From positions 1 through 64,000 of the forward strand of contig NZ_JAGHRE010000003.1 in the NCBI RefSeq assembly GCF_017743935.1: a DNA stretch of 64,000 nucleotides, written 5' to 3'. Each line of letters begins with the position of its first letter. Within the stretch, counting starts at the first letter, position 1. A model generated the notes under the pieces. That model did not search any database. It worked only from the letters and a program-made list of their open reading frames with translations, and had not been told where the DNA came from. This document shows positions 8,912 to 41,469 of the stretch, one piece after another. This DNA is from Tropicibacter sp. R16_0 (GTDB taxonomy: Bacteria; Pseudomonadota; Alphaproteobacteria; Rhodobacterales; Rhodobacteraceae). The position numbers were made by a program, and so were the translations under genes.

Positions 8912-8926
8912 TGGCGGGTCTGGTCC

Positions 8927-10036
8927 TTATTCTGCAGGTTCGGTCTGACCGGCAAGGATGTCACGCACGCGTGCTTCCTGCACATCGTCGTGTTCACCGA
9001 TGACGACCACGCGACCCAAGCGGGTTTCGTCTGCCTTCCAGGGACGGTCGAACTGGTGACGCACGCGTGCTCCCACAGCCTGCACCAGCAGGCGCATCGG
9101 TTTGCCGGTAACTGCAGCATAGCCTTTGACACGCAGGATGTTGAGCTCAGAGGCCAGATGCTCGATCCGCGAGACCAGCTCCTGGGGGTCGTTCAGTTCG
9201 GGCAGATCAACGACGATGCTGTTGAAGTTGTCGTGGTTGTGGTCGTGATGATGGTGGTGCCCGTGCTCATGATCATGATGGTGGTCATCATCGTGGTGGT
9301 GATGATCCTCGTGATGGCTGGGACGCGCGTCGATGTCGTCCTCTGCCGCAGCTTCAAGACCCAGAACAACGCGCACGTCGACGGCGCCCTCGGCGACCTC
9401 GACCACAGGCAGCGGGCGAGGGGCTTTGGCGGCGATCATCTCTTTGGCTTTGGCCACGCCATCAGGGCCAGCCAGATCGGGTTTGGTTAGCAGGATGATG
9501 TCGGCGCAGGCGATCTGATCCTCGAACACTTCGCTGAGGGGCGTTTCGTGATCGATGCTGTCATCGGCCAAACGCTGCGCGTCGACGGCGGCCACGTTGG
9601 TGGCAAAGCGACCGTTTGAGACCGCTTCAGCATCGGCCAAGGCGATCACGCCATCGACGGTGATTTTCGAGCGGATATCGGGCCAGTCGAACGCCTTGAG
9701 CAGCGGTTTCGGCAGGGCCAGGCCGGATGTCTCGATCAGGATGTGATCGGGGCGCGGATCCAGCGCCATCAGCGCCTCGATGGTGGGGATGAAATCGTCC
9801 GCGACGGTGCAGCAGATGCAGCCGTTGGCCAGCTCCATGATGTTTTCGGCCGGGCAATCCGGGATCGAGCATGATTTCAGGATGTCGCCATCCACGCCCA
9901 CATCGCCAAATTCGTTGACGACCACGGCCAGGCGCTTGCCCTGCGGGTTCTGCATCAGATGGCTGACCAATGTGGTTTTGCCCGAACCAAGAAAGCCGGT
10001 GATGACAGTGACGGGGAGTTTTTCAAGGGTCGACAT
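8927..10036 (-). CDS. cobW: CobW, COG0523 metal-chaperone GTPase
   Basis: The 369-residue protein starts MSTLEKLPVTVITGFLGSGK. It has the Walker A GFLGSGKTT, the CxCC metal site in NGCICCTV, the ETSGLALPKP segment and a TKPD guanine-specificity motif. A stretch of about 30 residues encoded near 9230-9325 contains about 18 histidines and many acidic residues, a likely metal-binding linker before the C-terminal CobW domain. CobW proteins are thought to deliver metal, probably cobalt, for the chelatase step. The start at 10036 is two bases after the DUF1636 stop. Confidence 0.93.
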   Translation of the reverse strand: MSTLEKLPVTVITGFLGSGKTTLVSHLMQNPQGKRLAVVVNEFGDVGVDGDILKSCSIPDCPAENIMELANGCICCTVADDFIPTIEALMALDPRPDHILIETSGLALPKPLLKAFDWPDIRSKITVDGVIALADAEAVSNGRFATNVAAVDAQRLADDSIDHETPLSEVFEDQIACADIILLTKPDLAGPDGVAKAKEMIAAKAPRPLPVVEVAEGAVDVRVVLGLEAAAEDDIDARPSHHEDHHHHDDDHHHDHEHGHHHHHDHNHDNFNSIVVDLPELNDPQELVSRIEHLASELNILRVKGYAAVTGKPMRLLVQAVGARVRHQFDRPWKADETRLGRVVVIGEHDDVQEARVRDILAGQTEPAE

Positions 10037-23909: not shown

Positions 23910-23985
23910 GCCCCTATAGCTCAGCTGGTAGAGCAACTGATTTGTAATCAGTAGGTCCGCGGTTCGAGTCCGTGTGGGGGCACCA
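23910..23985 (+). tRNA. tRNA-Thr (anticodon TGT)
   Basis: The 76-base gene folds as a normal cloverleaf. The acceptor GCCCCTA pairs with TGGGGGC, the D stem is GCTC/GAGC, the anticodon arm ACTGA-TTTGTAA-TCAGT gives TGT, the T arm has GGTTCGAGTCC, and the CCA is encoded. Its 3' end is the integration site of the island that follows. Confidence 0.95.
23970..23985 (+). repeat. attL, 16-bp core in the tRNA-Thr 3' end
   Basis: CCGTGTGGGGGCACCA here is identical to 34693-34708. The match stops exactly at both ends, as expected for a tyrosine-integrase crossover core that keeps the tRNA intact. Confidence 0.88.
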
Positions 23986-24066
23986 GACTTCTCCTGATTT
24001 CTTCATAGGAAACAGACCGTTACGAGTAATCTGGTTGCCTTCAAGGTGACACAGAAGGTAACACAC

Positions 24067-25485
24067 ATGTCTGTTGTTGTTCTTGAATCCGGAGCTTTCT
24101 CCATAGTGGCAAAGTATATTTTCCAGAAGTCTGGAAGCGCTGTCTGGTACTTTCGAAGACGAATTCCTGATGACGTTAGGAAGCACTACCCAGGCAAGAA
24201 GAACGGCTACCTCATCTTTTCGTTGGGCACCAAAGATCAGCTTGAGGCAGCTAAGAAGGCACATCAAAAAGCTCTTGAACAAGAAGCTATGTGGAAGAGT
24301 ATCCGCGATGGCAACGTTGCTGCGGGGCCGGAAGTTGTGAGCGCAGCTAAGGAGATGTTGAGTTCTTACGGATTGAAGCCGGGGCAATATGCTGAATATG
24401 AGGCTGCGGATCTTGAACCGGGTGAGTTCGTCAATGAGCTTCACCATCAAGTTGGTATCACTGGGTCGCACAATCAGTACAAGAACTGGCACAAAGACTT
24501 ACCTCCGGTGCATCGAATGGCTGGCGATCTGTTCTATGGAGGAAAAGAGCCTGTTTTTCTGTCAGTAGCCCTGAAGGAATTTCAGGAACTTAAAGGAGAA
24601 GACCCGAAAGACAGAGCTGGTAAAGACCGCGTTCGAGTCGTCAATGAGTTCATCACTCAATTTGGTGATCTCCCAATCGAAAAATATTCTCGAGATGATG
24701 CCAATTCCTTCGTCAAAGCTCTTCTGGAAAAGGGCAACAAGACGACGACCGTTCAGAGGCGAATCAACTCTATTCGACCGGTGTTTAGCTTCACTAGCAG
24801 AGAACGCGAGCTTACGGATAAACGGATATTTGAGAGCCTTAGTATTCCCAAGCTTGGAGAAGACACAAAAGCCAGATTGCCCTTCGAAAGGTCAGAAATT
24901 GCCTTGATTCAGGCGGCTTGCATTGCAGAAGATGACGACATTCGGTGGGTCGTCGCTCTGCTTTCAGACACAGGTATGCGTCTTGGCGAAGCAACCGGGC
25001 TCATGACGGCGGATGTCTATCTTGATGATCCAATACCCTATGTATCAATTCGCCCGAACAGTGCGCGTAGATTGAAGTCGAATTCCTCAGTTCGAGATGT
25101 TCCTTTGGTCGGTGCGTCTTTGTGGGCACTGCGTCGTGCGATGCCGTATGCCAAGAATGGTTTTGTTTTTCCAAGATATATTGATGCAACCAAGGATCCG
25201 GTTTTGCACAAGGGAACTAGTGCTTCCAATGCTCTCAAAAAGTGGTTGCGATCTCAGCCGATCACTCAGAGCGACATGAAAACCAACCACTCGTTCCGGC
25301 ACAGTGCCCAAGATCGCCTGAGAGAGGTGCAAACGCCTCAAGACATTCGCAATGCCATCTGCGGATGGACCAACAAGGGGATCGGCGAAGGATACGGCAG
25401 AGGTTTTAGTCTTGGAGTACTCGCACAGCATCTAGAGAAGATCGTTCTGCCTGAAACTATGCGCTTGATTCAGGGTGAAGAGTAA
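24067..25485 (+). CDS. Tyrosine-type site-specific integrase
   Basis: The 472-residue protein has the catalytic residues of tyrosine recombinases: Arg in DTGMRLGEATGL, the H-x-x-R box in NHSFRHSAQD, the GWTNKG segment and a Tyr in GEGYGRGF. The N-terminal part includes WYFRRRIPDDVRKHY, common in alphaproteobacterial island integrases. The ATG at 24067, preceded by GAAGG, is preferred to a GTG at 24046. It lies 81 bases after the tRNA-Thr gene, so it is the enzyme expected to have inserted the island there. Confidence 0.92.
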   Translation: MSVVVLESGAFSIVAKYIFQKSGSAVWYFRRRIPDDVRKHYPGKKNGYLIFSLGTKDQLEAAKKAHQKALEQEAMWKSIRDGNVAAGPEVVSAAKEMLSSYGLKPGQYAEYEAADLEPGEFVNELHHQVGITGSHNQYKNWHKDLPPVHRMAGDLFYGGKEPVFLSVALKEFQELKGEDPKDRAGKDRVRVVNEFITQFGDLPIEKYSRDDANSFVKALLEKGNKTTTVQRRINSIRPVFSFTSRERELTDKRIFESLSIPKLGEDTKARLPFERSEIALIQAACIAEDDDIRWVVALLSDTGMRLGEATGLMTADVYLDDPIPYVSIRPNSARRLKSNSSVRDVPLVGASLWALRRAMPYAKNGFVFPRYIDATKDPVLHKGTSASNALKKWLRSQPITQSDMKTNHSFRHSAQDRLREVQTPQDIRNAICGWTNKGIGEGYGRGFSLGVLAQHLEKIVLPETMRLIQGEE

Positions 25486-25534: not shown

Positions 25535-26827
25535 ATGTACGACGGCGATCCCGAAGTATTGAGAGCGGCTGATCCAGCTGAATTTTTGCAATTCCCGGTT
25601 TCCCCAGAGGCCAACGAGATTGTTGATACACTGATGGCCGAGTTCATCCAGTGGCAATTCGACAATGGCGAAAGGATCCGAAGTCCTGATGAAAAATCAG
25701 CCGAAAGAATGAGCTCAACTGTGGCCGCTTTGCTTGGCGATCTTTTGGTAGCTGCACTGAACGAGGAAGCTGAGGGATATTGCTATCGTGGAAGCGACAG
25801 GGGGGCCTTCAAGGCAAATCTCGCAGAAAGCCGCGCCTACGAAGCCTTGAAGCGGTGCTGGAAAAACCTTGAGTACATGGAGGTGGTCAACGGTTTCAGA
25901 GGATCTCAACCTTGGGAGAACGGGGAGGTCATCCATCCGAACTCAAAATCCTCTAACTGGGTTACACGGTTACGGGCCACAGCAAAGCTTCTGGCTAAGC
26001 TAGAAGACCAGGGCATAACACCTCAAGGGGCGGGGAAGCACTTTCGGAGGGATTTGGACCTTTCAGTCCCGATTGTCTTGAAGGCTGACAAGAAGGGGAA
26101 GCTTAAGGGGCAGCAAATGCCTCTCCCAAAGAATGCCAAGGTCGAACGGCTTCAAGCAGAAGTAACCGAAATAAACGACTTCCTGGCACAGTGTTCGTTT
26201 AACATCGGGCCTGCGCCATATCTTTATCGTTCCTACAACAACGGGGATACCAAGGGTTTTGACTGGAACCTCGGAGGGCGTTTCTATGCTCCAAGCGGAA
26301 GCTACCTCTACTGGCCTTCAGAAAAACGATTGCAGATGCAAATCGAGGGTTCACCAGTTGTTGAGATCGACATAACGGCCTGTCAGCTCACAATACTGCA
26401 TGCCCTCATGGAAGAAAAACTCGACCTAAGTGGTGATCCTTTTCAGATAGATGGGCTGGATCGCAGTCGAGCAAAGGAGATCTTCAACATCATTGTCGGG
26501 TTAGGGGGCGCACCCAATCAGAACGGCAATATCAAATTGTCCAAAAGCATGAAGGGTGATTATGAGATCCTTTCTGAAGCATTCCCGATCTTGGAAGGGA
26601 TCGAAGAAGAGGGCTGGAACTCGTTGAAGCTCCAAGCCATCGACGCAGACATCATGCGAGACACTTTGCTGACCTTGTTTCGGGAACATCAAACCCCAGC
26701 CTTGCCAGTTCACGACTGCCTCATTGTCCGCAAACAGGATGCAGAGCTGGCAGAACGGGTGTTTGGAGACGCCTTCTACGAGAGACTTGGTGTCAGGCCC
26801 AAGTTCACTTTGGATACTTCAGACTAG
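25535..26827 (+). CDS. Stand-alone protein with family-A polymerase palm motifs
   Basis: This 430-residue protein was not recognised as a named family, but its C-terminal half shows the three palm motifs of family A polymerases in order. Motif A-like is VVEIDITACQLTIL (Asp279), motif B-like is R-SRA-K-EIFNIIVG (Arg310, Lys314), and motif C-like is LPVHDCLIV (His393-Asp394; the usual following Glu is Cys). The N-terminal 200 residues are charged and helical, with no exonuclease or primase motif. It could replicate the excised island or prime synthesis. An inactive or RNA-polymerase-like relative is possible. It follows the integrase by 49 bp. Confidence 0.6.
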   Translation: MYDGDPEVLRAADPAEFLQFPVSPEANEIVDTLMAEFIQWQFDNGERIRSPDEKSAERMSSTVAALLGDLLVAALNEEAEGYCYRGSDRGAFKANLAESRAYEALKRCWKNLEYMEVVNGFRGSQPWENGEVIHPNSKSSNWVTRLRATAKLLAKLEDQGITPQGAGKHFRRDLDLSVPIVLKADKKGKLKGQQMPLPKNAKVERLQAEVTEINDFLAQCSFNIGPAPYLYRSYNNGDTKGFDWNLGGRFYAPSGSYLYWPSEKRLQMQIEGSPVVEIDITACQLTILHALMEEKLDLSGDPFQIDGLDRSRAKEIFNIIVGLGGAPNQNGNIKLSKSMKGDYEILSEAFPILEGIEEEGWNSLKLQAIDADIMRDTLLTLFREHQTPALPVHDCLIVRKQDAELAERVFGDAFYERLGVRPKFTLDTSD

Positions 26828-27913: not shown

Positions 27914-28462
27914 ATGAACATTGGATATGCACGCGTATCGACCACGGAACAGATTGCTGGCCTAGAGGCTCAGAGGGAGTCACTGAGAGCCGTTGGTTGC
28001 GACAGGCTGTATGAGGAGCAAATCAGCTCAGTGGCCTTCAGAGGGGCGTTACAAGAAGCCCTTGAGTACGTCCGTGATGGGGATTGCCTAGTGGTGACCA
28101 AGTTGGATCGTTTAGCAAGATCCGTAAGACATCTTGGGGAGATCCTTGAGACATTGGAAGCCAAAGGTGTTGATCTCAGGGTGTTGGATCTAGGCTTGGA
28201 TACATCCAATGCCACAGGAAAGCTGATGCTAAACGTTCTGGGATCTGTGGCTCAGTTTGAACGGGAGCTGATGCTGGAACGGCAACGAGAAGGGATTTCT
28301 AAGGCTAAGGCAGAGGGGCGGTACAAGGGCCGAAAACCCACCGCTCAGCTTAAGGCACAAGAGATCAAAGAGATGGTGGCCCAAGGGCAACCTAAGAAGG
28401 ACGTTGCGAAGGTACTTGGGGTTTCGGAGCGATCCGTCTACAGGGTTCTCAGAGCACAGTAA
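27914..28462 (+). CDS. Serine recombinase, resolvase/invertase family
   Basis: The 182-residue protein starts MNIGYARVSTTEQ with the catalytic serine in YARVST. It continues with KLDRLARSVRHLG and GKLMLNVLGSVAQFERELM, the resolvase core, and ends in a DNA-binding helix-turn-helix (KDVAKVLGVSERSVYRVL). It should resolve or invert DNA at sites within the element. The ATG at 27914 has AAGGAG 13 bases upstream. Its upstream region holds the repeats described above. Confidence 0.92.
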   Translation: MNIGYARVSTTEQIAGLEAQRESLRAVGCDRLYEEQISSVAFRGALQEALEYVRDGDCLVVTKLDRLARSVRHLGEILETLEAKGVDLRVLDLGLDTSNATGKLMLNVLGSVAQFERELMLERQREGISKAKAEGRYKGRKPTAQLKAQEIKEMVAQGQPKKDVAKVLGVSERSVYRVLRAQ

Positions 28463-28824: not shown

Positions 28825-29970
28825 ATGAATTGCTTGGAAGTGTTTTCTGGTGTCGGTGGGATGGCTCTTGGTCTGGATGCCGCTGGGTTTGAGCACATCG
28901 ATATTGTTGACTTCGATGCAGCTTGCATATCCACTTTGAACCAAAACATCACGAATGGCCAACTCGGGGAACGTAGCTCGACCGCAACAAAAATGGATGT
29001 TGCAGAGTATGATTTCCTCTCAGCACGAGGTCGGATTGATTTGCTATCTGGAGGTCCGCCATGTCAGCCTTTTTCATTCGGAGGGAGCCACCGTGCTGCT
29101 TTAGACAAGAGGAATATGTTCCCCCAAGTCGTGAGAGCAGTAAGAGAGGCACGACCAAGAGCATTCCTTTTTGAGAATGTTCCGGGTTTGACGAGAGCTA
29201 AATTCAGAAATTATTTTGAGTATTTGAAACTTTCTCTTACCTACCCAAGTTTAGAACCGGTTCTAGACGAAAGCTGGCAGGAGCATTTCAAACGGCTTGA
29301 ACAACATCATTTGTCGACAAACGCGTCTAGCTGCGAGTATGCAGTAATCGCGCAGGCAATCAACGCCGCCGATTATGGAGTGCCGCAATCAAGGCTGCGT
29401 GTCTTTATTGTCGGAGTTCGCCGTGATCAAGGTTGCAATTGGCATTTTCCTCTTCCGACACACTCGAAGGATTCTCTCCTTAGGGAACAGGATTCTGGCC
29501 TGTATTTTGAACGACATGGTATTAAAAATAACGCAAAAGAAAGCGAAATTTGCGTTTCTGACCTGTTTGATGAAGAGCAATCTACGTTGGCCCCATGGGT
29601 TACTTTGCGTGATGCTATCCAAGGTTTGGGTGACCCGGAAACAGACGAAGTTCTCCAAGACTTAACCGGGCACGTCTATAAACCCGGAGCACGAATCTAC
29701 AAGGGGCATACCGGTAGCTGTTTAGATCAACCTGCAAAGACTCTGAAAGCAGGTGTTAACGGCGTTCCTGGGGGTGAAAACATGATGGTCAAGGATAGCG
29801 GAGCAGTTCGTTATTTGACAATAAGAGAGTGCGCTCGTGTTCAAACATTCCCGGATGACTTCGTTTTCCACGACGTATGGAGTAGAGCTGTGAAGCAACT
29901 CGGGAACGCTGTCCCAGTCAAACTGGCTGAAGTTCTCGGAAGTAGTCTGTTTTCGACACTTTCAAAATGA
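28825..29970 (+). CDS. DNA (cytosine-5-)-methyltransferase
   Basis: The 381-residue protein has the ordered motifs of C5 methyltransferases: motif I FSGVGGMALGLDAAGF, motif IV GGPPCQPFSFGG with the catalytic cysteine at about residue 80, motif VI ENVPGL, motif VIII QSRLRVFIVGV, and motif X GNAVPV. The target-recognition region lies between about 220 and 320; its site cannot be read. The ATG at 28825 begins motif I almost at once, normal for the family. It is convergent with the ATPase operon, with six bases between stop codons. No restriction endonuclease partner is recognisable. Confidence 0.93.
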   Translation: MNCLEVFSGVGGMALGLDAAGFEHIDIVDFDAACISTLNQNITNGQLGERSSTATKMDVAEYDFLSARGRIDLLSGGPPCQPFSFGGSHRAALDKRNMFPQVVRAVREARPRAFLFENVPGLTRAKFRNYFEYLKLSLTYPSLEPVLDESWQEHFKRLEQHHLSTNASSCEYAVIAQAINAADYGVPQSRLRVFIVGVRRDQGCNWHFPLPTHSKDSLLREQDSGLYFERHGIKNNAKESEICVSDLFDEEQSTLAPWVTLRDAIQGLGDPETDEVLQDLTGHVYKPGARIYKGHTGSCLDQPAKTLKAGVNGVPGGENMMVKDSGAVRYLTIRECARVQTFPDDFVFHDVWSRAVKQLGNAVPVKLAEVLGSSLFSTLSK

Positions 29971-29976
29971 GCATTG

Positions 29977-32634
29977 TCAAAAATTCATCGCTTGTTGGGT
30001 TTCTGTAAAAAATACGAGTTTCTCTCTGCTCCAGTAAAGGGGATTATTCCTTGCGTCTGGAATGGGTTGGCCAATGGCGGAATGCGTCTCCACTTGAAAA
30101 GTGTGCGGTGCAGATACTTCAGGAGATGGCCCCCTCAGTTCATGCGGGTCGATTTCAAATCTGAAGTCTGTTTTTAGCACGAGAGCATGCTTCAGTGGGT
30201 CAGACCGACTGTCATCAACGTTGCGATAGGCATCAGTTCTTGATCCGTAACGGCTATCATGATTGGCAGCATTCATCCTTACAGACAAAATGGTGTGGGT
30301 TAAGATGGACGTTAGGTTACGAGTCCTGAGTAAACTAAAAAGCTGAGGCCAAAACAAATTTTGCTTTTCTATCTCGGGGAACTGTAGAAAAACGTTGTGA
30401 ATTCCATCGATTACAATCGTCGTAAACGGGTCGCCAGACAGTTGCGAGGCGCGAAGAGCCCACTCAATTTTGCTGTACAGTGCATCCGGTTTCAAGTGCC
30501 CAGGGTACAAATGCAGAACTTCCAGTCGAGGTTCAAAATTAGGTGACAGATTCGGGTATTCTCGTATTCTCAATCCCCGCAGTCTAACCATAATGTTAGC
30601 GTAGTATTCCTCTGGATACAGAAATGAAACTACCAAAACCTTCTCAGGCTTTTCAATCGGAGTATTGCCATCATCTGTATGAAAGGAAGGGGCAGTAGCA
30701 ATTTTCAATGCCAAACCGGCCTTGCCGCCAGATCCTTCGCCATTGAGAAATATATTGGAGCCCCGATACAGGTTAACGCTAGCGACGTCGTTAGAGAAAA
30801 ATGATAAGTTCCTGGAAGGTGCAGAAGCGGGGCCATCTGGTATGTATTTCAAGTCTTCCTGGCGGCAAGCAATTTGCATCACGCGCTTGTAGACTGGCAT
30901 GTATGGAAGGCGGGCGTTCCAAATGGAGAGTCTATCTAATTGATAGTTGATTTGAGGGGTGAATCGGACTCCTTTGTCTCCGGCGATCTGTAGCCCGTGA
31001 GTGCCAGGTGAGCAAAGTTGATGGCGGGCTTTTGACAAGGTCAGATATCGATGAGGTTTTGATCCATCATTGGACTCAGTCTCATGGGACAACCTCATTG
31101 CCACGTCCACCAGGTAATCAAGCGATGTATCTGCGTTCCAATCGGTTCCCGTAGTAAGAATTACGAGCGCTCGAAGACGTCTGCATGTTTCAATGAACCG
31201 GTGGAACTCACCTGTGATCTTCTTGGCGTCGTTGTTCTCCAAGTCAAGTAATGCTTGTGTCGCGATTTCGTGCAAGCCGTCAAGAACGACTATGGTTCTA
31301 CAAGGTAAGGGAATTGCATCACTTGGCCCATTGGTCTGTCTTTGTTCTAATGCTTCGGACAGTTTCTCGAATTCTTCACTCAACGTGCTAAGGCGCACTT
31401 CTTCAGCTTCTCTCACAAGCTCAAATCGTTGGATTTTGAGCCAGCTATCTGGGTCGTTTGGAATGAACGGCAGACTTCTAACGGCAGAAGGTAGCAAACC
31501 AGCGACTCTGCTTTTCAGATCCGCTGGGTCTTCTTCTGCAGTAAGGAACAATGTTCGAATTCCGAACCCTGACAGGGCCGCGCCAACGCCTAAAGCTAAA
31601 GCAGTTTTGCCAGATCCTGGGCCTCCATGAAGAGCGCAAACCAAACCGCCACGAGACGAAAAGTTCAACCCTCCTCGGAAAATCGTATCCGCTCCTCGAA
31701 TAGGAACAGGAATACCCCAGAGGCTGTTTACGATTTCAGCGAATTCGGTCGGAGATTTTAAGTTCCTCGGTTTAGTAAACTCAAAGGGAATTCCAAGATC
31801 GTGTAGATCACATTTCTCACTGAGTGCGGAGATAACTTCGGCTGGATTTTGGCCGTATTTTTCCAAGGCCTTGAATCTTAGAAACAGCACGCCTGTCATC
31901 GCGAGATAGTGTCGTAAAATTCCCGAGACTCTATCTTGCCGCCTCATTTGTGGGCGTGCTTTTATGTCGTCAACTTTATCTTGCCCTTTACTTCGATAGC
32001 GCTCACGCATCGAGGTCATTAGGCTATTGTATGAGGTTTCCAACTCTTGAACTGTGAATTCATCATAGCTGTGCTCAAGGATGGTTGACGGTACGGCTCC
32101 AAATTTTTGGAACAAAATTGATCTCATCGTCAGAAGAGAATAGGCTCTACTGCCCGGATGATCAGGAATAGTTAAGAAGTCGGCGACAATCTGATAAGGG
32201 GACGGTAAGATAATGGCATCGTGGGGATTGCGCGATTCTTCAAAGGTAGTTTCAATCGCATTCTTTATCAGTCTCGATATTCTTGTGGGGTTTTGTTGGA
32301 CGAGCTCGCTTGATGGATCGCCAACGCTTTCGCCACGACTGAACGCTTCAGCGATGCCGCTTTCTAATTTCGAGCTGTGCCGGAGTGTTCTCGTTTCAAG
32401 TGGATGAAGAGCTTCATCGGCACTCCCTTCTCGGAGATGGCGAACTTGGTTTTCACGAGTTATGACGGGAATCCAGCAGAAATGGCGATTGATTTGTGCG
32501 TTGGATATAAGGTTTGGTGGTGCAAATTCATATGTGTCGCCGTTTTTAACTACAAACTCCCCAAACGACCTAAGAGTACTTGCTATCAGCTTGGAGGCAA
32601 TATCATGATAGGGAAGTCTTCTATTTTGGGACAT
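29977..32634 (-). CDS. Large protein with two KaiC/RecA-like ATPase domains
   Basis: This 885-residue protein carries two P-loop regions of the KaiC/RadA kind. The first has Walker A GGPGSGKTA (Lys about 343), TLFLTAEEDP, and Walker B TIVVLDGLHE. The second has a degenerate Walker A, GEGSGGKAG (about 633-639), followed by VLVVSFLYPEEYY and TIVIDGIHN. The N-terminal 300 residues are of unknown type. The first domain looks active; the second may bind but not hydrolyse ATP. It is the third gene of a coupled operon, with a TTGATG overlap with the gene upstream. KaiC-like ATPases recur in signalling and phage-defence loci, but I do not recognise this arrangement. Confidence 0.7.
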   Translation of the reverse strand: MSQNRRLPYHDIASKLIASTLRSFGEFVVKNGDTYEFAPPNLISNAQINRHFCWIPVITRENQVRHLREGSADEALHPLETRTLRHSSKLESGIAEAFSRGESVGDPSSELVQQNPTRISRLIKNAIETTFEESRNPHDAIILPSPYQIVADFLTIPDHPGSRAYSLLTMRSILFQKFGAVPSTILEHSYDEFTVQELETSYNSLMTSMRERYRSKGQDKVDDIKARPQMRRQDRVSGILRHYLAMTGVLFLRFKALEKYGQNPAEVISALSEKCDLHDLGIPFEFTKPRNLKSPTEFAEIVNSLWGIPVPIRGADTIFRGGLNFSSRGGLVCALHGGPGSGKTALALGVGAALSGFGIRTLFLTAEEDPADLKSRVAGLLPSAVRSLPFIPNDPDSWLKIQRFELVREAEEVRLSTLSEEFEKLSEALEQRQTNGPSDAIPLPCRTIVVLDGLHEIATQALLDLENNDAKKITGEFHRFIETCRRLRALVILTTGTDWNADTSLDYLVDVAMRLSHETESNDGSKPHRYLTLSKARHQLCSPGTHGLQIAGDKGVRFTPQINYQLDRLSIWNARLPYMPVYKRVMQIACRQEDLKYIPDGPASAPSRNLSFFSNDVASVNLYRGSNIFLNGEGSGGKAGLALKIATAPSFHTDDGNTPIEKPEKVLVVSFLYPEEYYANIMVRLRGLRIREYPNLSPNFEPRLEVLHLYPGHLKPDALYSKIEWALRASQLSGDPFTTIVIDGIHNVFLQFPEIEKQNLFWPQLFSLLRTRNLTSILTHTILSVRMNAANHDSRYGSRTDAYRNVDDSRSDPLKHALVLKTDFRFEIDPHELRGPSPEVSAPHTFQVETHSAIGQPIPDARNNPLYWSREKLVFFTETQQAMNF

Positions 32635-33392
32635 CAAGCTGCAGCCTCAGCCAACAGTGGAGTGCCTGAAATAAAGTCGAGTGCAGTATCGTCCAAAATT
32701 CTTCTCCGGCTTGCTCGCTTTAGTGGTCGGCTCTTTTTCAGAGACAGCTGTGTTCCACGTTTCTCATTTATCCAGGTAAGAAAATGAGCGCCTTCTCTAG
32801 GTGGTAGCTTTTTTGCTAGGTTCAGTGCAAAGTTGTTGAATTTATTATTCGGAATCGCAGATATTAACTTTAGATACCTGGGTTTCAGAAACGTCCACTT
32901 GATAGACGGAGATTTACCGGAAATCATTGAACTAATGGTATCCAGCAACCCCTGTTGATCATGAGCATATGCCTCCAACGCTAAATCTAACCACAGAGCT
33001 GGAGACTCGGATTTGAGTACAGTGAGTTCATGAAGTTGTTGCGGCGCAAACTCCCCACCGCACTTGATGAGGAGATTTGAGAGTTCATACTGAGATCTGG
33101 CTGAGAGCGTAACGGGGGCGGGCATATCGAACAGCCTGCGCTCAAGGGCATCCCTGAGTGCCGTACCATAACACCCAGTTCGTTTAGCAGTTAGAGCGAT
33201 GCCCATCGCCACATCTTCATGATCTGCATTGCTGTCTTGAACTACTGTTGCCAGAATTTGGTCAAAATGATCAGAATCGAAGTTTTCCTCGTCTTTGACT
33301 CGTGCAAGCCAAAGCTCCAAGTCGGTGAAGCCGCCTTTTGTGACGTGCCCATCTGCAAAGTCGCGCAGGGCATTTCGAAGTTCTTCAAGCAC
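32634..33392 (-). CDS. Uncharacterised helical protein, middle gene of the ATPase operon
   Basis: The 252-residue protein was not recognised. It appears all-helical with HEAT/TPR-like spacing of hydrophobic residues (for example VAMGIALTAKRTGCYGTALR and LWLDLALEAYAHDQQGLLD) and a basic C-terminal segment rich in Lys and Arg (KKSRPLKRASRRR). It may be an adaptor or nucleic-acid-binding scaffold for the ATPase. The start is a GTG at 33392, four bases after the stop of the upstream gene, and its stop overlaps the ATPase start. Confidence 0.6.
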   Translation of the reverse strand: MLEELRNALRDFADGHVTKGGFTDLELWLARVKDEENFDSDHFDQILATVVQDSNADHEDVAMGIALTAKRTGCYGTALRDALERRLFDMPAPVTLSARSQYELSNLLIKCGGEFAPQQLHELTVLKSESPALWLDLALEAYAHDQQGLLDTISSMISGKSPSIKWTFLKPRYLKLISAIPNNKFNNFALNLAKKLPPREGAHFLTWINEKRGTQLSLKKSRPLKRASRRRILDDTALDFISGTPLLAEAAA

Positions 33393-33396
33393 TTAT

Positions 33397-34215
33397 CTAT
33401 GTCCTTGCTACGCGAATCTGTCCTACAACTTCACTGTATGGAACAGCATCGCAAATTACCTCTAGGAGTCCACCTCGATCTCGGCATGATTGGGGGCCGT
33501 ATGGAATAGGTACCGTCCTGCCTCCAGGTTCCCAAATGTCTCTTACTGTTGTGTATCCACCGTGGCAAAAGTTTGACGCTCTGGTGTTCTGCGCGCTTTC
33601 TGCAGATATGGTTAGGCAAAGGTAGTCGAAGCCGGTTCTATAAGTTTCGCCAGGGTCGAGCAAATCAGGTAATCCGAGGCGGCAAGGTAGGCAGTTAAGG
33701 TCTGTCTCCATGTCTTCATTTGCGTTACCGGCCTCACTTTCCGACCGGAAGACCCAGCAAACTGGGGGACTGATTGTGAAAGCAGAACCAGTGTTGGGGT
33801 CGGTGGCCGACTTAAGATCTTCGAACCAGTCTTCCGCGACTTTTCGTTGGCTCGGTGTGGGGGCTGGTCTGCAAAGATCGTTTAGCCACAAGAACATCTG
33901 TTGTACATCGTCAACGTCCTGATGAAGGCTTTTTGCAATGTACCGTGCCGCGCCAAATAAGTTTGTCACTCTACCGAGAATTTCTTCGCTAGACAGACTT
34001 ATGGCAGTACCGGAGGATTGGTGATCCTTAACAAACTCTTCGTACGCGCGTTCCACGGAAACATCTGAGGGATTAACCTCATCTTCTCGTAGTTCGCAGT
34101 CACAACTGGAGCAACGAGATAAGAATTCATTCTTGAGCTCAAGGCCGCAGTTGTCTCCTCGAATTTTGTTGTAGACGTCGTCATGGAGATGTGTCGGTTT
34201 GTCAATCAGCGTCAA
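33397..34215 (-). CDS. Uncharacterised Cys-rich protein, first gene of the ATPase operon
   Basis: The 272-residue protein is not a family I know. It has an N-terminal cysteine cluster (CSSCDC at about residues 35-40), a middle pair (NCLPC, about 177) and a C-terminal part with FCHGGYTTVRDIWEPGG. The clusters suggest a small zinc-binding element. No nuclease, TIR or protease motif is evident. The only start codon in frame near the beginning is a TTG at 34215, so the true N-terminus is uncertain. Its frame is closed just upstream by a stop. Confidence 0.55.
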   Translation of the reverse strand: MTLIDKPTHLHDDVYNKIRGDNCGLELKNEFLSRCSSCDCELREDEVNPSDVSVERAYEEFVKDHQSSGTAISLSSEEILGRVTNLFGAARYIAKSLHQDVDDVQQMFLWLNDLCRPAPTPSQRKVAEDWFEDLKSATDPNTGSAFTISPPVCWVFRSESEAGNANEDMETDLNCLPCRLGLPDLLDPGETYRTGFDYLCLTISAESAQNTRASNFCHGGYTTVRDIWEPGGRTVPIPYGPQSCRDRGGLLEVICDAVPYSEVVGQIRVART

Positions 34216-34692: not shown

Positions 34693-34708
34693 CCGTGTGG
34701 GGGCACCA
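34693..34708 (+). repeat. attR of the tRNA-Thr island
   Basis: This is an exact 16-bp copy of the tRNA-Thr 3' end (CCGTGTGGGGGCACCA). The base before (A, versus T in the tRNA) and the base after (C versus G) differ, so the core is exactly 16 bp. Confidence 0.88.
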
Positions 34709-34801
34709 CTTTTCCCTAAGATTCAGAGTCCTAGTCACTACACCCAATGCTTGACGGGGTACAGTTGATCCATTCTGTGGCGGCTTCGTGCCGAGACCTG
34801 G

Positions 34802-34990
34802 CTAGAGGCCCGTGTTTTCATTGAGCAGTGCTCGGGCTTTGTCGGCCATCTCACTCTTGGAAAACTTGGCGTACTTTTGGGTTTGTACGACTGTCGAATG
34901 ATCCAAGAGATGCGAGACTTCTTCCAAACGCAGTCCCTTGTTCAACATACGCGTGGCGTAATCGCGACGAATAAGTCTTTGAAAACAGGG
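34802..34990 (-). pseudogene. C-terminal relic of a second tyrosine integrase
   Basis: The minus strand encodes about 60 residues ending at a TAG at 34802: LIRRDYATRMLNKGLRLEEV, then SHLLDHSTVVQTQKYAKF and a short tail. This is the typical end of a tyrosine recombinase, with the H-box (DHST), the catalytic Tyr in QKYAKF and the conserved RRDYATRML. The rest of the gene is missing, so it cannot be active. It lies about 100 bases beyond attR and is unrelated in sequence to the island's own integrase. Confidence 0.75.
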
Positions 34991-35005
34991 AGGGTTGCCC
35001 AGGGA

Positions 35006-35341
35006 TCAACGCCCGATCCGGTTGTTAAACCGGTTCATGCTGCGTGTATCGCCCTCAAGCTCGAGGCCTTTGTGGGTCTTGCGAACACGGACACCCGAAC
35101 GGTCGACGATATCCTGTTTGTAGGCGAGATACCCGCCTGTCTGCGACGGTGTAACGTCACCGGTTGGCGCGCCAAATTCTGTGCCTGAATTCTTGCTATC
35201 GGCATAGCCCAACCCGAGTTCGACGAATTTCCCGTTTTCGAACAAGATACGTGTATCTGTTGGAAAGCTTTCAACGCCGCCTGCAACTGCCGCTCCACCG
35301 GTCAAGGTTGCTGTCGATAAAAGGATTGCTAAGTTTTTCAA
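35006..35341 (-). pseudogene. Truncated FadL/OMPP1-type outer-membrane protein
   Basis: From a TTG at 35341 with a strong GGGAGG, the frame encodes a signal peptide (LKNLAILLSTATLTGGAAVA). The mature start follows the FadL family pattern (DTRILFENGKFVELGLGYA, then GGYLAYKQDI). After about 75 residues the similarity stops, and 35 unrelated residues follow to the stop at 35006. A full FadL has about 380 residues or more, so this is a 5' remnant cut by recombination, with its break facing the integrase relic. Confidence 0.65.
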
Positions 35342-36197
35342 GTTTACCTCCCTCACTGTCCCCAACTGTGCGATGTGCAAAGAGGGACAGATCGGGTGCT
35401 TGCAGCCCAGCAGGCCAAGTAAGCCGATTCCCTAACTCCAACGCGCAATTTCAAAGTTCAGGAAACATGAGTTGGCAGCCCACCTTTAGCGATGTCCCGA
35501 GACGTCATTCCTTGGGACACTTTTTGTCAGGAGCTGAGATCCCTCCGAGCTGTTCGGCAATCCCGGAACAACAGTCCGTCATGCAAACTGCGGAGAAGGA
35601 CGAAACAGTGCTGCACGCGTCGTATATGAGCTGTGTCGCCTGTTTCTGCGTGAATTCTCTATACTTGCAATTACAGCCACGTAACACTTCAGTGGAGGAA
35701 CAGTCGCAATCTAATGCCTGCTTTGGGCTGTTCATAACCTAGTGTCAGTTGAAGTTGTGCCACCAACGTCACTCCTGAAACACATTGTGTAACACCGGGC
35801 GGGCACATATGCGGCTTTCACGACTAAGCTAAAGCACCTAGATCGAGTCAAGGACGGGTCTCTCAGATACTGCGGTAGGATTGCCCGCCATCAGCAGAGC
35901 CGCAGAGACGGCATGTTCAATCTCTGCCATCAATGCTGGTGACGCGTCCGATGTACCGGGCTTGTTCGTCTCTGGGCGGATGGCGTGCGTTCGCTGCACC
36001 CTCGAGATTTGGTGCTCAGAATGGTTGGCGCTGATTGGGGTTCGCGTTGATTAAACTGAGACATTTGGCGGATTTCCCAAGTTGAGAGTGCATCGGGCTG
36101 TGCCGCCATAGGTTTGCGTTTTCAGTTCAACGGTGCGGAATTTTCATATTCGTATATACTAACTTCAGTTTTTTCGAATCCATATGAGGTGCCGCGT
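35342..36197. other. 856-bp stretch without a confident gene
   Basis: The only notable frame is a 76-residue minus-strand ORF (35505-35735) rich in cysteine (CDCSS, CNCKY, CMTDCC). It has a weak ribosome binding site and no signal peptide, so I do not call it. The right end should hold the promoter of the cyclase operon. Confidence 0.4.
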
Positions 36198-37994: not shown

Positions 37995-38034
37995 AAGACA
38001 ATTAGAAACCAAACATTCAATGGAGGACCCTGTT

Positions 38035-39306
38035 ATGGCAAACTCTTCTTATGCGGCGCCCGAAGGCGCGTTCGGAGCCTTTGGTGCTTTCGGCGCCTTC
38101 TCTGGCAGTGGAGCGTTCGGGGCATTTGGAGCGTTCGGAGCATTTGGCGGACCCGGGCCAGCCAATCCACCATTGATCTCTCATTCTTTGATCACCAATC
38201 ACGATGGCATCGCGGGCACATGGATTCCTGTGGCAGCCAGTGACGTGGATCCAAGTGCACAGGAAAGCACGGAATACCTGGCGCGTTTGTCGCCGGCCGT
38301 CCGCGCAAGCATCTACGCGCTGGAATTGGGCAGCCGCATCGGGTTTGTGTTCGAACCCAACGCCACCTCTTCTGACCCTGGTTGGGGACGTGTCTTTCAC
38401 CTTGAAACCAGTGCGACAGCAGGTGTGCCTGACGCAACCTATCAGAACCTGATCGCGATGCGGCGCCCGACGCAGGATATCTTTGCCGAACAGCTGACGT
38501 TGGTGGCCAATTACGCGGATCTTCGTCAAGACCGAATGGCAGAGATTCTGGCGCAGCTGGGCACACCGACCGAGTTTCTGCGCGCGATTGCCTATATTGA
38601 ACCGTCGCGGACCCCGTTCACGATCGAATTGTTGGCAACGGCTCATTGGTTGGCCAATTTTGTCGAGATGCGACTGAAATACGCGTTGGCGTGCAAACGT
38701 CCGATCGAGTTTTCACCACAGATCCAACCAATGATATGGACGCCTTCGCATGGCAGTTTGCCCAGCGGGCACGCCACTGAGGCCTTCACGATGGCTCGGG
38801 TTCTATGGTTGCTGCTACGGGCCAATTCCGTGAAACCTTACTCGGACGGCATCTGGGGCGAAATTCTGATGCGTCAAGCCGCTCGGATCGCAATCAACCG
38901 GACCGTCGCGGGTGTGCATTTTCCCGTCGACAGCGCAGCGGGGGCCGTTTTGGGGCTGACGCTGGGCAAATACTTTGTCGATCGGTGCACATTGGCGGTG
39001 CCGAGCAAAAGCTGGACATTCGATGGGGTCAATTATCCCGGTGGGCTGGATTTCGACTGGCGCGATTACTTTGATCCCGGTGACCCTGCAAATGGGACGG
39101 ATCCCTCGCAAAAGCCCACCGGCTGGTCGAGCGGGGCCACGATTGCTGCGTCGGGCAGTACGCCGATAACATCGGCGCCGCTAAACTGGTTGTGGCGGCG
39201 TGCAGCCGATGAATGGATCGACCTCGCCGTGAACTTGAGCGGCGGCTCCGGCTCCGGGGCTGGCTCCGGGTCTGGCTCCGGCAGTGGCGGCAGTGGCGGA
39301 GAGTGA
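38035..39306 (+). CDS. PAP2/vanadium haloperoxidase-superfamily protein with Gly-Ala-Phe repeat
   Basis: The 423-residue protein contains the full acid phosphatase/haloperoxidase motif: K-x6-RP in KYALACKRP, LPSGHAT, and R-x5-H-x3-D in RTVAGVHFPVD. It could therefore bind phosphate or vanadate. The first 40 residues are two blocks of Gly-Ala-Phe repeats separated by SGSG, and the last 20 are Gly-Ser rich. No ordinary signal peptide or membrane helices are seen, unlike lipid phosphatases, which favours the soluble haloperoxidase-like branch. GGAGGA precedes the ATG. The subtilase gene starts three bases after its stop. Confidence 0.78.
   Translation: MANSSYAAPEGAFGAFGAFGAFSGSGAFGAFGAFGAFGGPGPANPPLISHSLITNHDGIAGTWIPVAASDVDPSAQESTEYLARLSPAVRASIYALELGSRIGFVFEPNATSSDPGWGRVFHLETSATAGVPDATYQNLIAMRRPTQDIFAEQLTLVANYADLRQDRMAEILAQLGTPTEFLRAIAYIEPSRTPFTIELLATAHWLANFVEMRLKYALACKRPIEFSPQIQPMIWTPSHGSLPSGHATEAFTMARVLWLLLRANSVKPYSDGIWGEILMRQAARIAINRTVAGVHFPVDSAAGAVLGLTLGKYFVDRCTLAVPSKSWTFDGVNYPGGLDFDWRDYFDPGDPANGTDPSQKPTGWSSGATIAASGSTPITSAPLNWLWRRAADEWIDLAVNLSGGSGSGAGSGSGSGSGGSGGE
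38065..38151 (+). repeat. Tandem 9-base repeat coding Gly-Ala-Phe
   Basis: About eight degenerate 9-mers of the form GGn-GCn-TTy run in two blocks inside the PAP2 gene, separated by codons for Ser-Gly-Ser. Third positions vary, so the repeat is kept at the protein level rather than being a fresh DNA slippage product. Confidence 0.85.
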
Positions 39307-39309
39307 GCC

Positions 39310-41469
39310 ATGACCTTGAAATGGAGAGAGCTTCTAGGCTCACAAAAACCGCGCAATCCCGAAGCGTTTTTTGCGCTGAACGCCATGCAACGGTTCTTTG
39401 AGGCGGATCTTGGATTGGATGGCACCGGCCCGTCTTCGGAAACCCGTACCTTTGACGACCAATGGTGGCTTGCCCTTGTCAGTGTCGCCCGCCGCGGCGA
39501 CGGTGACGATCAACGTGTCTCGATCGCAGAATTGGTGGCCATGGCCAAGGATTACAGGCTCGGGCCTTTGGATGATGCGCTTGTAATTCCTGGGGAATAC
39601 ACCAGCGCGTACCGAGATAGGCGGGATCTGGATGTTATCACGATCTATGCCCGCAAGGCGTATCTAGAGGCAGCCAACAGACCCGATGGACAGGAAGCGC
39701 TTGGCATAGCCACGATTAACATCAGCGCGCCGCTGGACTTTCGCACCCTGAACTCTGCATCAGGTATATTTGAGCCCCCAACCGCCACCGTGACCGTTTC
39801 AGACGACACTGTTGTTACCGCTGTGATCGACCACGGCATTGCGATTGCCCACGATCTTTTTCGGCGAAACAATGCGGGTGGTATGCCCATTGAAAGCAGG
39901 GTGGACTTCTTTCTGGACATGGATGGCGAACCGGACGCCAACGCCCCATTACAAAGCACCGTTGGGCGGGCTTGGACGCGGCAAGAGATCGAAGGTGTTC
40001 TGTCGACAAATTTTAAGAACGGATTGCTGGACGAGGCCGCAGTTTATCGCGATCTGGGCCTGATCAATTGGCAGGATCGTGCATTTAATGCCTGCACCCA
40101 GCGGGTTTCCCACGGGACCCATGTGATGGGCCTGGCGTCTGGCTATGATCCTTCTGATGCGCAGGGAAGCAAACACCGCATTATCGCTGTCCAACTTCCC
40201 ACCAGTCTGGTGGCAAACACAATTGGCTTTGGGCTTGATAACTCTCTTGAGCGTGCGTTGGATTTCATTGGCCAGCAGCTTGCGCATTACGAGATCGATT
40301 CAGAGACCGCCGATTTGCCGGTCGCGATCAACTTTAGCTTTGGCAATTTCATGGGGCCACATGATGGTACAGGTGATGTCGACCGCGCCATCGACGCGGC
40401 GCTGACCGCAATGGCTGCGGATTCGGATACGCCCAAAATGATGTTTTTGCCGTCAGGCAATGGGCACCTGTCGCGGTGTCACGCGGTTCTCAACTTGACA
40501 GAGGCCGATCCAGACGAAGCTCTGGACTGGATGCTGCCGCCCGGAGACCGAAGTGCCTCCGTGCTGAGCGCGTGGTTGCCGAGGCAGGTGTCGGTTGAAG
40601 ATGACACGGTGGATCTGGAAATCTCGGTTCCCGGAATGGCCACGCCCCAGACGCTCAGCGCGGGCAATATGGCTCGCATTTTGCTCCTGGAAGGTGCGGA
40701 TCCGAGCGGCAACGCAAAGATCGTCGCGGTCGCGGCTTATCAGCCACCTCGGTCACCAACCTTCCGGGGGCGGTTTCTGGTATTGGTTGCTCCAACCGAC
40801 AACCCAAAGGATGCGCGACCGTTGGCCCCGTCAGGTATTTGGAACCTGCGGTTTGTCAAAGGTTCCGCGGTGGAGACCTTGGCTCTTAACGTTTGGGTGC
40901 AACGAGACGAGACCTTGCCCAATTTTCCGGTTTATGGGCGGCAATCCTACTTGTCGGATCGCCACTATGACCGTTTCACCGAGCCTGGCGGATCGTTGCA
41001 AGACATTGATTTGAGCGCGCAAGCCACTCCGGTTCGTCGGGCGGGCATGATCAACGGGATCGCTTGCGGAAACTTACCTTCGGTGATTGCGGGTTATGTG
41101 CGCTCCGATCGAAACATGGCAAAGTACTCCGCAGGTGGCCCAACACTGAACAGTCTGCGCCTGAATGGCCCGGATGCTTCTGCTGTAAGCGACGACAGCG
41201 TGGTTCTGAGCGGAGTTCTGAGCGCAGGGTCGAGCAGCGGGTCGCGCGTGGCAATGAACGGCACCAGTGTCGCGACACCCCGAGTGACGCGCTGGGCGGC
41301 CAGCGAAATGTCGGCGAACCCAACAACACCGTTCACCCGGTCCAACGTGATCAACCGAGCCCTCAATGACGACCCAAATCTGCCGTCCAAACCCAGCCTG
41401 AACCGAACCGGCGGTGGGCGCATCCGGTTCGAAAGTGTTTTTGGAGGTTTGCGCTGGCCGGGACAGTGA
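39310..41469 (+). CDS. Subtilisin-like (S8) serine protease
   Basis: The 719-residue protein has the S8 triad in order: Asp about 174 in AVIDHGIA, His about 268 in VSHGTHVMG, and Ser about 653 in NGTSVATP. The oxyanion-type Asn lies between them in SGNGH. A domain of about 250 residues is inserted between the His and Ser regions. No signal peptide is present, so export, if any, is not by the Sec route, and an intracellular role is possible. It is the third gene of the cyclase-PAP2-protease operon. Confidence 0.88.
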   Translation: MTLKWRELLGSQKPRNPEAFFALNAMQRFFEADLGLDGTGPSSETRTFDDQWWLALVSVARRGDGDDQRVSIAELVAMAKDYRLGPLDDALVIPGEYTSAYRDRRDLDVITIYARKAYLEAANRPDGQEALGIATINISAPLDFRTLNSASGIFEPPTATVTVSDDTVVTAVIDHGIAIAHDLFRRNNAGGMPIESRVDFFLDMDGEPDANAPLQSTVGRAWTRQEIEGVLSTNFKNGLLDEAAVYRDLGLINWQDRAFNACTQRVSHGTHVMGLASGYDPSDAQGSKHRIIAVQLPTSLVANTIGFGLDNSLERALDFIGQQLAHYEIDSETADLPVAINFSFGNFMGPHDGTGDVDRAIDAALTAMAADSDTPKMMFLPSGNGHLSRCHAVLNLTEADPDEALDWMLPPGDRSASVLSAWLPRQVSVEDDTVDLEISVPGMATPQTLSAGNMARILLLEGADPSGNAKIVAVAAYQPPRSPTFRGRFLVLVAPTDNPKDARPLAPSGIWNLRFVKGSAVETLALNVWVQRDETLPNFPVYGRQSYLSDRHYDRFTEPGGSLQDIDLSAQATPVRRAGMINGIACGNLPSVIAGYVRSDRNMAKYSAGGPTLNSLRLNGPDASAVSDDSVVLSGVLSAGSSSGSRVAMNGTSVATPRVTRWAASEMSANPTTPFTRSNVINRALNDDPNLPSKPSLNRTGGGRIRFESVFGGLRWPGQ

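Follow-up and report, generated by a model that had tools for sequence, protein, structure and literature searches.

A C5 methyltransferase facing a three-gene KaiC-like ATPase operon on a small integrative element of Tropicibacter: a candidate DNA-modification-linked defence system

Type II restriction-modification (R-M) systems of the Eco29kI family consist of a DNA methyltransferase (MTase) and a GIY-YIG nuclease and act at the site CCGCGG, as described in part of PMC1952068. The Mza system is called validated in a section of Miller et al. 2022 (PMC9523054), a paper that also puts forward a putative 'Type I' system, which is associated with repair endonucleases and includes three further genes left unnamed. 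Here we analyse the first 64,000 nucleotides of contig NZ_JAGHRE010000003.1 of Tropicibacter sp. R16_0 (assembly GCF_017743935.1; hereafter the window), in which the gene for a cytosine-C5 MTase (M) faces a three-gene operon (A-B-C) encoding a KaiC-like ATPase. We find that A-B-C recurs beside a DNA MTase of exchangeable class and ends where three relatives of M have a nuclease gene. On balance, these comparisons favour the view that M and A-B-C together make up a DNA-modification-linked defence system on a small integrative element, with an ATP-driven restriction part in which we recognise no nuclease. Because the set recurs beside other MTases in distant bacteria, it probably represents a little-known way of discriminating between self and foreign DNA.

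M (28825–29970, plus strand) encodes an Eco29kI-like enzyme of 381 aa, counted from ATG, that matches Pfam PF00145 (9e-57); among PADLOC profiles, MTase_II (PDLC03307, 1.4e-113) ranks above DruM2 (3.4e-83) and DrmMII (3e-38). Only 6 bp separate the end of M from the end of the minus-strand operon (34215–29977), in which A (33397–34215) encodes a 272-aa protein with a conserved C-terminal half, B (32634–33392) a 252-aa helical protein with a solenoid-like model, and C (29977–32634) an 885-aa protein comprising an N-terminal region and two KaiC/RecA-like domains. The ATG at 32634 gives C its 885 residues, an upstream TTG would give 886, the B and C genes overlap, and A and B are spaced by 4 bp. 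These open reading frame (ORF) coordinates agree with the first-pass annotation of this DNA, which had described a complete C5 methyltransferase ending six bases from an operon for an 885-aa protein. Third codon positions are the most changed in all four genes when the window is compared with a related locus (L016), which is the pattern of maintained coding genes.

All relatives of C were found by the C sequence alone. Searches with C of the window returned only its own genome among 385 genomes of the class and one other homologue (G553) among 390 genomes of the order; an alignment of these two proteins added G1057 among 398 genomes of the phylum, together with one locus from a viral collection, and the resulting four-member alignment recovered 14 loci in a collection holding one genome per species, a number that is a lower bound because these loci were found by short patterns. 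A class sample of Bacteroidota contributed 2 of 295 genomes, both already known. Counting L014 and L025 once, as they are the same locus, there are 17 distinct C loci including the window, and their record titles and tree labels place them in Proteobacteria and Bacteroidota. Short P-loop matches from the class sample (three) and the order sample (two) were dropped as generic (L002–L004, L006 and L007), as was, as a chance match, a first viral hit of 17 residues in a phage-like contig (L009). Searches by tblastn returned nothing in plasmids or phages for C of the window, and nothing in plasmids for the C proteins of L015 and L014 or for A of L010. The A-B-C module is both real and rare.

Judged from ORFs and matches to PF00145 or PF01555, 14 of the 17 C loci have a DNA MTase no more than about 1.5 kb away from the module; the calls at L010, L027 and L029 are PF01555 matches below the cut-off. 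With 0–7 matches to PF00145 and 0–7 to PF01555 per genome or record (18 searched), this adjacency is far above chance even at a generous 8% per locus, a bound set by hand, although the loci group in three clades and so are non-independent. The MTase is tail to tail with C in the window and at L010, L014/L025, L016, L017, L022 and L027; at L026 a nuclease-like gene, with a sub-threshold match to Eco29kI, stands between C and the MTase. At L015, L019, L021, L023, L024 and L029 module and MTase are all on one strand, separated by a Vsr gene at L015 and by Vsr and transposase genes at L021. The test of co-occurrence that had been proposed for the MTase and the operon therefore came out in favour of an association. 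It also bears on the alternative that M acts alone, as the anti-restriction enzyme considered in the original description or as a regulatory MTase, and that the KaiC-like operon has an unrelated job, their proximity being incidental. Eight of the 14 MTase-bearing loci are transcribed convergently, which leaves no operon link and would suit such an arrangement, as would the three loci at which no adjacent MTase was seen; however, adjacency at 14 of 17 loci involves three unrelated or distant types of MTase, and at seven loci the C and MTase genes meet end to end, overlapping or at most 20 bp apart. A solitary M is disfavoured, and we regard it as very improbable.

The MTase partner is exchangeable (METHYLTRANSFERASE): each of the three MTase groups corresponds to one side of a branch of the C tree with support of 100/100. 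In clade I (window, L015, L016, L017 and L026; L018 also belongs here) the partners are C5 enzymes like those of Eco29kI-type systems, in clade II (L010, L014, L022, L027 and L029) they are N4-type enzymes of 420–470 aa with FxGxG and SPPY motifs, and in clade III (Bacteroidota, and also L020) they form another C5 group with a mean identity of 27% to clade I. The clade II enzyme of L010 matches PF01555 (7e-7), PADLOC MTase_II (1.3e-53) and a phage DNA methyltransferase family (8e-44), and shares with M of the window only short similar stretches (best E 0.10). Identities of C and of the MTase are correlated within clade I (r 0.79) and clade II (r 0.96; 10 non-independent pairs each) and uncorrelated in clade III (r -0.26 over 6 pairs), where L023 and L024 are 65% identical in C, 49% in A and only 38% in the MTase, with a different gene order.

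It is tempting to speculate that C5 and N4-type enzymes share the site that they protect, in which case A-B-C itself would read that site. We considered in this connection the Deinococcus matches to the N4-type enzyme of L022 (13 of 35 matching records), one of which, on a Deinococcus radiodurans plasmid, we take to be the CCGCGG enzyme M.DraR1; at 25% identity (E 6e-10) these matches are too distant to transfer specificity, and we set the argument aside. A direct test of what reads the mark is possible because the module recurs with unrelated MTases. On plasmids, relatives of the N4-type MTase of L010 occur at L041 (5929–11559, 42% identity) and L042 (5518–12772, 41%), two unannotated records, of three with such relatives, that we read from their ORFs; judged by eye, operons for SMC-type ATPases lie on both sides of the MTase at L041 and a KAP-type NTPase lies near it at L042. 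Perhaps these belong to another MTase-linked ATPase system.

Relatives of M itself occur in 40 plasmid records, three of which we examined. Two of them carry Vsr, MTase and GIY-YIG nuclease genes (L043 and L045) and the third an MTase gene and a gene for a nuclease annotated as Eco29kI family (L044), with MTases 48–49% identical to M. At all three the nuclease gene lies 3′ of the MTase gene on the same strand, whereas in the window it is C that ends there, on the opposite strand. The PF09517 (Eco29kI) profile found no match in the genome of the window, and among 7 genomes it found only the nuclease-like protein of L026, below the cut-off. On the Ruegeria plasmid of L045 (3259–9945) the Vsr, MTase and GIY-YIG nuclease genes are followed by genes annotated as an ATP-binding protein and a DEAD/DEAH helicase, an arrangement that we label an R-M locus with an ATPase extension. 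The idea that M marks self while the ATPase complex acts on unmarked DNA, put forward when the locus was first described, is the best fit to the sequences, because the MTase type is exchangeable and because the operon sits at the nuclease place of three M relatives; its functional part would follow from these gene arrangements by inference.

C is the member of the module whose family can be named. It matches the KaiC family of Pfam (PF06745) over residues 312–562 (3e-10, above the 26.6-bit cut-off), and a profile of the 17 C proteins matches KaiC in the Protein Data Bank (PDB; 3.4e-8). In domain 1 the Walker A motif (G-x4-GKT; 31603–31626, minus strand) is canonical in 17/17 proteins, and the P-loop GKT, a pair of glutamates and the Walker B aspartate are invariant; the lysine singled out earlier as Lys343 is the invariant lysine of this motif. 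Alignment and motif counts show that the Walker A of domain 2 (GxGSxGKA; 30718–30741, minus strand) is degenerate: G-x-G-S-x-G-K is kept in 17/17, with alanine in place of serine or threonine after the lysine in 16/17. Domain 2 also has SFLY, as read by eye from the alignment, at the position of the glutamate pair of domain 1, and carries the signature HNVFLQF. That C has two KaiC/RecA-like domains, one with an intact and one with a degenerate Walker A, thus holds across the family. Since the motifs of domain 1 are intact and those of domain 2 altered, domain 1 is predicted to hydrolyse ATP, and domain 2 has the look of a regulatory domain. No PADLOC match to C is significant, the only one being TRIP13 (0.019).

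Neither A nor B has a significant match in Pfam, NCBIfam or PADLOC, A reaching only noise in Pfam (0.07). Alignment of 14 A proteins shows a conserved C-terminal half with W154, LPCRLGL, GGxT and E252; residues G69, W154, L176, G181, G232, T234 and E252 are invariant. The earlier description of A as Cys-rich does not extend to the family, as cysteines at positions 35, 38 and 40 occur in only 6, 3 and 2 of the 14 aligned relatives. AlphaFold2 gives a confident model of A (pLDDT 88.6, pTM 0.83), for which Foldseek returned no match at E ≤ 0.001 in PDB or BFVD. We considered whether A is a DarT-like ADP-ribosyltransferase and found this unsupported, a DarT structure ranking third in Foldseek with E 1.3 and probability 0.06. 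Being unmatched in these searches, A is a good target for structural and activity work. B was modelled as helical with a tail of low confidence (pLDDT 85.1, pTM 0.77), in line with its earlier description as a helical protein. Its best Foldseek match to solved structures (probability 0.94, E 0.11) is not significant, so we call B only helical or solenoid-like; its profile matches RBL4 (8e-6) over three short stretches. Of the searches that the first-pass annotation recommended for the operon proteins, profile comparison gave KaiC for C, and structure comparison left A and B without a significant match. We recognised no nuclease motif in A, B or C, a result that is weaker than proof of absence.

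Several observations weigh against reading the four genes as one defence system. No adjacent MTase was seen at L018 (a 12.8-kb contig of a metagenome-assembled genome, MAG), at L028 (a 22.5-kb stretch) or at L020, where the contig stops 1.2 kb away from C. A was recognised at 14 of the 17 loci: at 12 by profile at E ≤ 0.01 (three of which, L010, L014 and L015, were in the profile seed), in the window itself, and at L023 by its 49% identity to A of L024. A went unrecognised at L017, L020 and L026, where the upstream genes have no kinship to it (assessed by HHalign at L017), and A is therefore not essential everywhere. The B profile recognises 7 loci outside the window, three of which belong to its own seed; weak counterparts stand at L018 and four Bacteroidota loci (HHalign probability 36 and 59), and B fails at L028, L017 and L026. 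By BLASTP, the window and L010 match in A at 4e-25 and in B at 2e-6. The missing nuclease must be read with the insensitivity of PF09517, to which the nuclease-like protein of L026 itself falls under the cut-off, and of PADLOC REase_II, which at 1e-10 was reached by only L044 among four nuclease proteins. PADLOC 2.0.0 holds no significant profile for A, B or C, and the module was very rarely found in the genome samples (1/385, 2/390 and 2/398, own genome included, and 2/295).

At the three loci where A was not recognised, other genes take its place. Two unknown genes lie upstream of C at L020, and at L026 (7877–9971) a flavin adenine dinucleotide (FAD) oxidoreductase (DAO, PF01266, 7.8e-15) and a helix-turn-helix (HTH) protein stand in place of A and B. 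Upstream of C at L017, with a further gene between them, is an unrelated gene (8473–9306) for a 278-aa protein with no Pfam match and, by HHalign, no kinship with A. Relatives of this protein occur on rhizobial and roseobacter plasmids (11 records); in the three examined, the gene is the first of a gene pair (L032 3986–5684, L033 4016–6015 and L034 3980–5985), and these relatives have no Pfam match except one at noise level. Its H..Y..E pattern resembles that of ADP-ribosyltransferases, and we leave such an identity as a guess. After C, L023 (12258–15696) and L020 (3793–7220) share a similar block of three genes, for proteins of 650, 253 and about 240 aa, the first of which matches PADLOC PDC-M33A at L023 (5e-19) and has by eye the look of a GHKL ATPase.

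At three Bacteroidota loci A-B-C sits among genes resembling those of Mza, for which Gao et al. 2020 is reportedly the source. On one strand, L019 has an MTase, A, B, C, MzaB (7e-98), MzaC (3e-156), MzaD (8e-16) and MzaE (7e-89); the order at L021 is A, B, C, Vsr, transposase, MTase, MzaB, MzaC and MzaD, and that at L024 is Vsr, A, B, C, MTase, MzaB, MzaC, a 319-aa gene and MzaE. Because A-B-C also adjoins such R-M-like systems and the upstream genes change, a guard or addiction role must be weighed as a serious alternative: A-B-C would stay silent while methylation or R-M is intact and, once a phage or rival element interferes with it, kill or arrest the host cell. The nuclease-like gene of L026 fits this picture, as does the gene upstream of C, which varies as swappable effectors would (A at 14 of 17 loci, the 278-aa protein at L017, and at L026 the FAD oxidoreductase, with the HTH protein between). 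However, we recognised no toxic domain in A, and among the ORFs of the window and the other proteobacterial loci, inspected by eye and in part scanned, another restriction enzyme was noticed only at L015, where a divergent Mrr-like gene lies upstream (PF04471, 3.5e-21), and at L026. We consider a guard role unlikely, if worth keeping in mind.

The presence of Vsr beside the module at 4 of 17 loci raises the further question of whether A-B-C is a DNA-repair accessory that, with Vsr, handles lesions or mismatches at methylated sites. Kinship of C would agree with this, since a part of PMC5512222 treats KaiC and RadA/Sms as sister families of the RecA-like superfamily. However, neither in the window nor at the loci with N4-type MTases did inspection by eye reveal a Vsr gene; at these N4-type loci deamination of 5-methylcytosine (5mC) is not at issue, and the mobile, patchy distribution of the module suits defence better, so that a repair role strikes us as extremely improbable.

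How the favoured defence system might work can be sketched from the domains present. M would mark host and element DNA, and A, B and C would assemble into an ATP-driven complex in which domain 1 of C hydrolyses ATP, domain 2 of C is a degenerate regulatory nucleotide-binding domain, B serves as a helical scaffold and A is the effector or recognition part. This complex would block DNA that lacks the mark of M. Because no nuclease motif was recognised in the three proteins, the block may be non-cleaving, or A, or else the N-terminal region of C, may contain an active site that we did not recognise. The reader of the DNA could be M itself, as in BREX, or A-B-C. If this sketch is right, a mobile four-gene cassette would restrict DNA without a recognised nuclease. 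More specifically, and only tentatively, we envisage a new type of R-M system in which the tandem KaiC-like ATPase, A with its unmatched fold and the scaffold B replace the nuclease and block unmethylated DNA without cutting it, the MTase and, at a few loci, the upstream genes being interchangeable.

The four genes are the recognised cargo of an element of about 10.7 kb in a tRNA-Thr(TGT) gene (23910–23985, plus strand; ARAGORN), bounded by an exact 16-bp repeat whose left copy (23970–23985, plus) is the 3′ end of the tRNA and whose right copy lies at 34693–34708 (plus). Besides M and A-B-C, the genes recognised on it, all on the plus strand, encode a tyrosine integrase with a DUF6538 N-terminus (24046–25485; PF00589 9e-11, PF20172 1e-15), a 430-aa protein of unknown function (25535–26827; phrog_4756 7.7e-19, without a Pfam match) and a serine resolvase/invertase (27914–28462; PF00239 1.8e-41). 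The left flank of the element is present in relatives, including a genome of the same genus (G1417), and the right flank matches one of 40 other genomes, again G1417 (121 bp at 85%). A homologue of window position 35766 lies 45 bp from the tRNA end in G1417 as against 11.8 kb in the window, so the site in G1417 is empty. Integrase, repeat and empty site bear out the initial suggestion of an integrase-borne island. About 1 kb past the repeat (34709–35765) is also missing at the empty site and is not accounted for by the repeat; it represents either a second small insertion or local decay. Of five loci with tRNAs, two, L010 and L029, have an element of about 11 kb delimited by a repeat of the tRNA end, 47 bp long at L010 and 19 bp at L029; none was found at L025 or L027, and the repeat at L016 is a mere tandem tRNA. 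By eye, the proteins accompanying the serine resolvases look alike in the window (25535–26827), at L022 (16443–17732) and at L029 (15542–16240). Beyond the element, the window encodes a protein with GAFGAFGAFG-type repeats at its start and a Gly-Ser run at its end (38020–39306) and, downstream, one that by eye looks like a subtilase (39310–41469).

A small repeat-bounded element with this cassette as its main recognised cargo, and elements of similar size at L010 and L029, would also be expected if A-B-C and M served element maintenance by making loss of the element lethal (post-segregational killing) and had no anti-phage role. R-M systems can act in this way: for the CCGCGG system of Deinococcus, part of PMC10855626 reports that cells die when the MTase is lost. 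On the other hand, we noticed no integrase by eye among the ORFs listed at the Mza-like Bacteroidota loci, for which no dedicated search was made, and maintenance does not exclude defence. As the sole role it seems to us improbable.

How, then, does the locus compare with known systems? It is like the Eco29kI family in that three plasmid relatives of M, at 48–49% identity, adjoin a GIY-YIG nuclease gene, an identity that does not fix the specificity of M as CCGCGG; it differs in having a three-gene ATPase operon at the nuclease place and, within the reach of an insensitive model, no Eco29kI match in its genome. The window set also resembles BREX. Like BREX it combines an MTase with an ATPase, and nucleases are not always present there either, according to part of PMC12839542; unlike the N6-MTase core of BREX, the MTases here are of C5 or N4 type. 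Among seven window proteins scanned with PADLOC, BREX profiles, including PglZ and the BREX MTase and ATPase, were absent for A, B and C and, among the matches listed (25 of 63 families), for M. Partner genes of DISARM and Druantia were not found beside M, A and B having no match and C only that to TRIP13. CglI/NgoAVII systems likewise have a separate MTase and a separate ATPase required for restriction, but their predicted DEAD-family helicase and DNA-cleaving R-protein, as presented in part of PMC4267653, were not recognised here.

With Mza the module shares a locus of MTase, Vsr and ATPases, and in Bacteroidota its surroundings; it differs in that MzaB–E were absent from the seven window proteins. 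The 'Type I' system of PMC9523054 may include A-B-C in such a Mza-like setting, and the stand-alone form of MTase and A-B-C is absent from the section devoted to that system. Among the matches listed from open-licence literature on KaiC/RecA-like proteins with methyltransferase, restriction or defence, no title concerned this gene set, and the main text of the 2008 MORC paper (PMC2292703) contains neither 'KaiC' nor 'RecA'. The initial impression that no known defence system has this gene set thus stands as far as PADLOC and this literature go, and is qualified by the possible overlap with 'Type I'. As we found neither a significant PADLOC match nor a description in this literature, we class the locus as DNA-modification-linked defence with a new ATPase partner. 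If this is correct, KaiC-type ATPases would join helicase and MORC-type motors as partners of DNA methylation in self/non-self discrimination.

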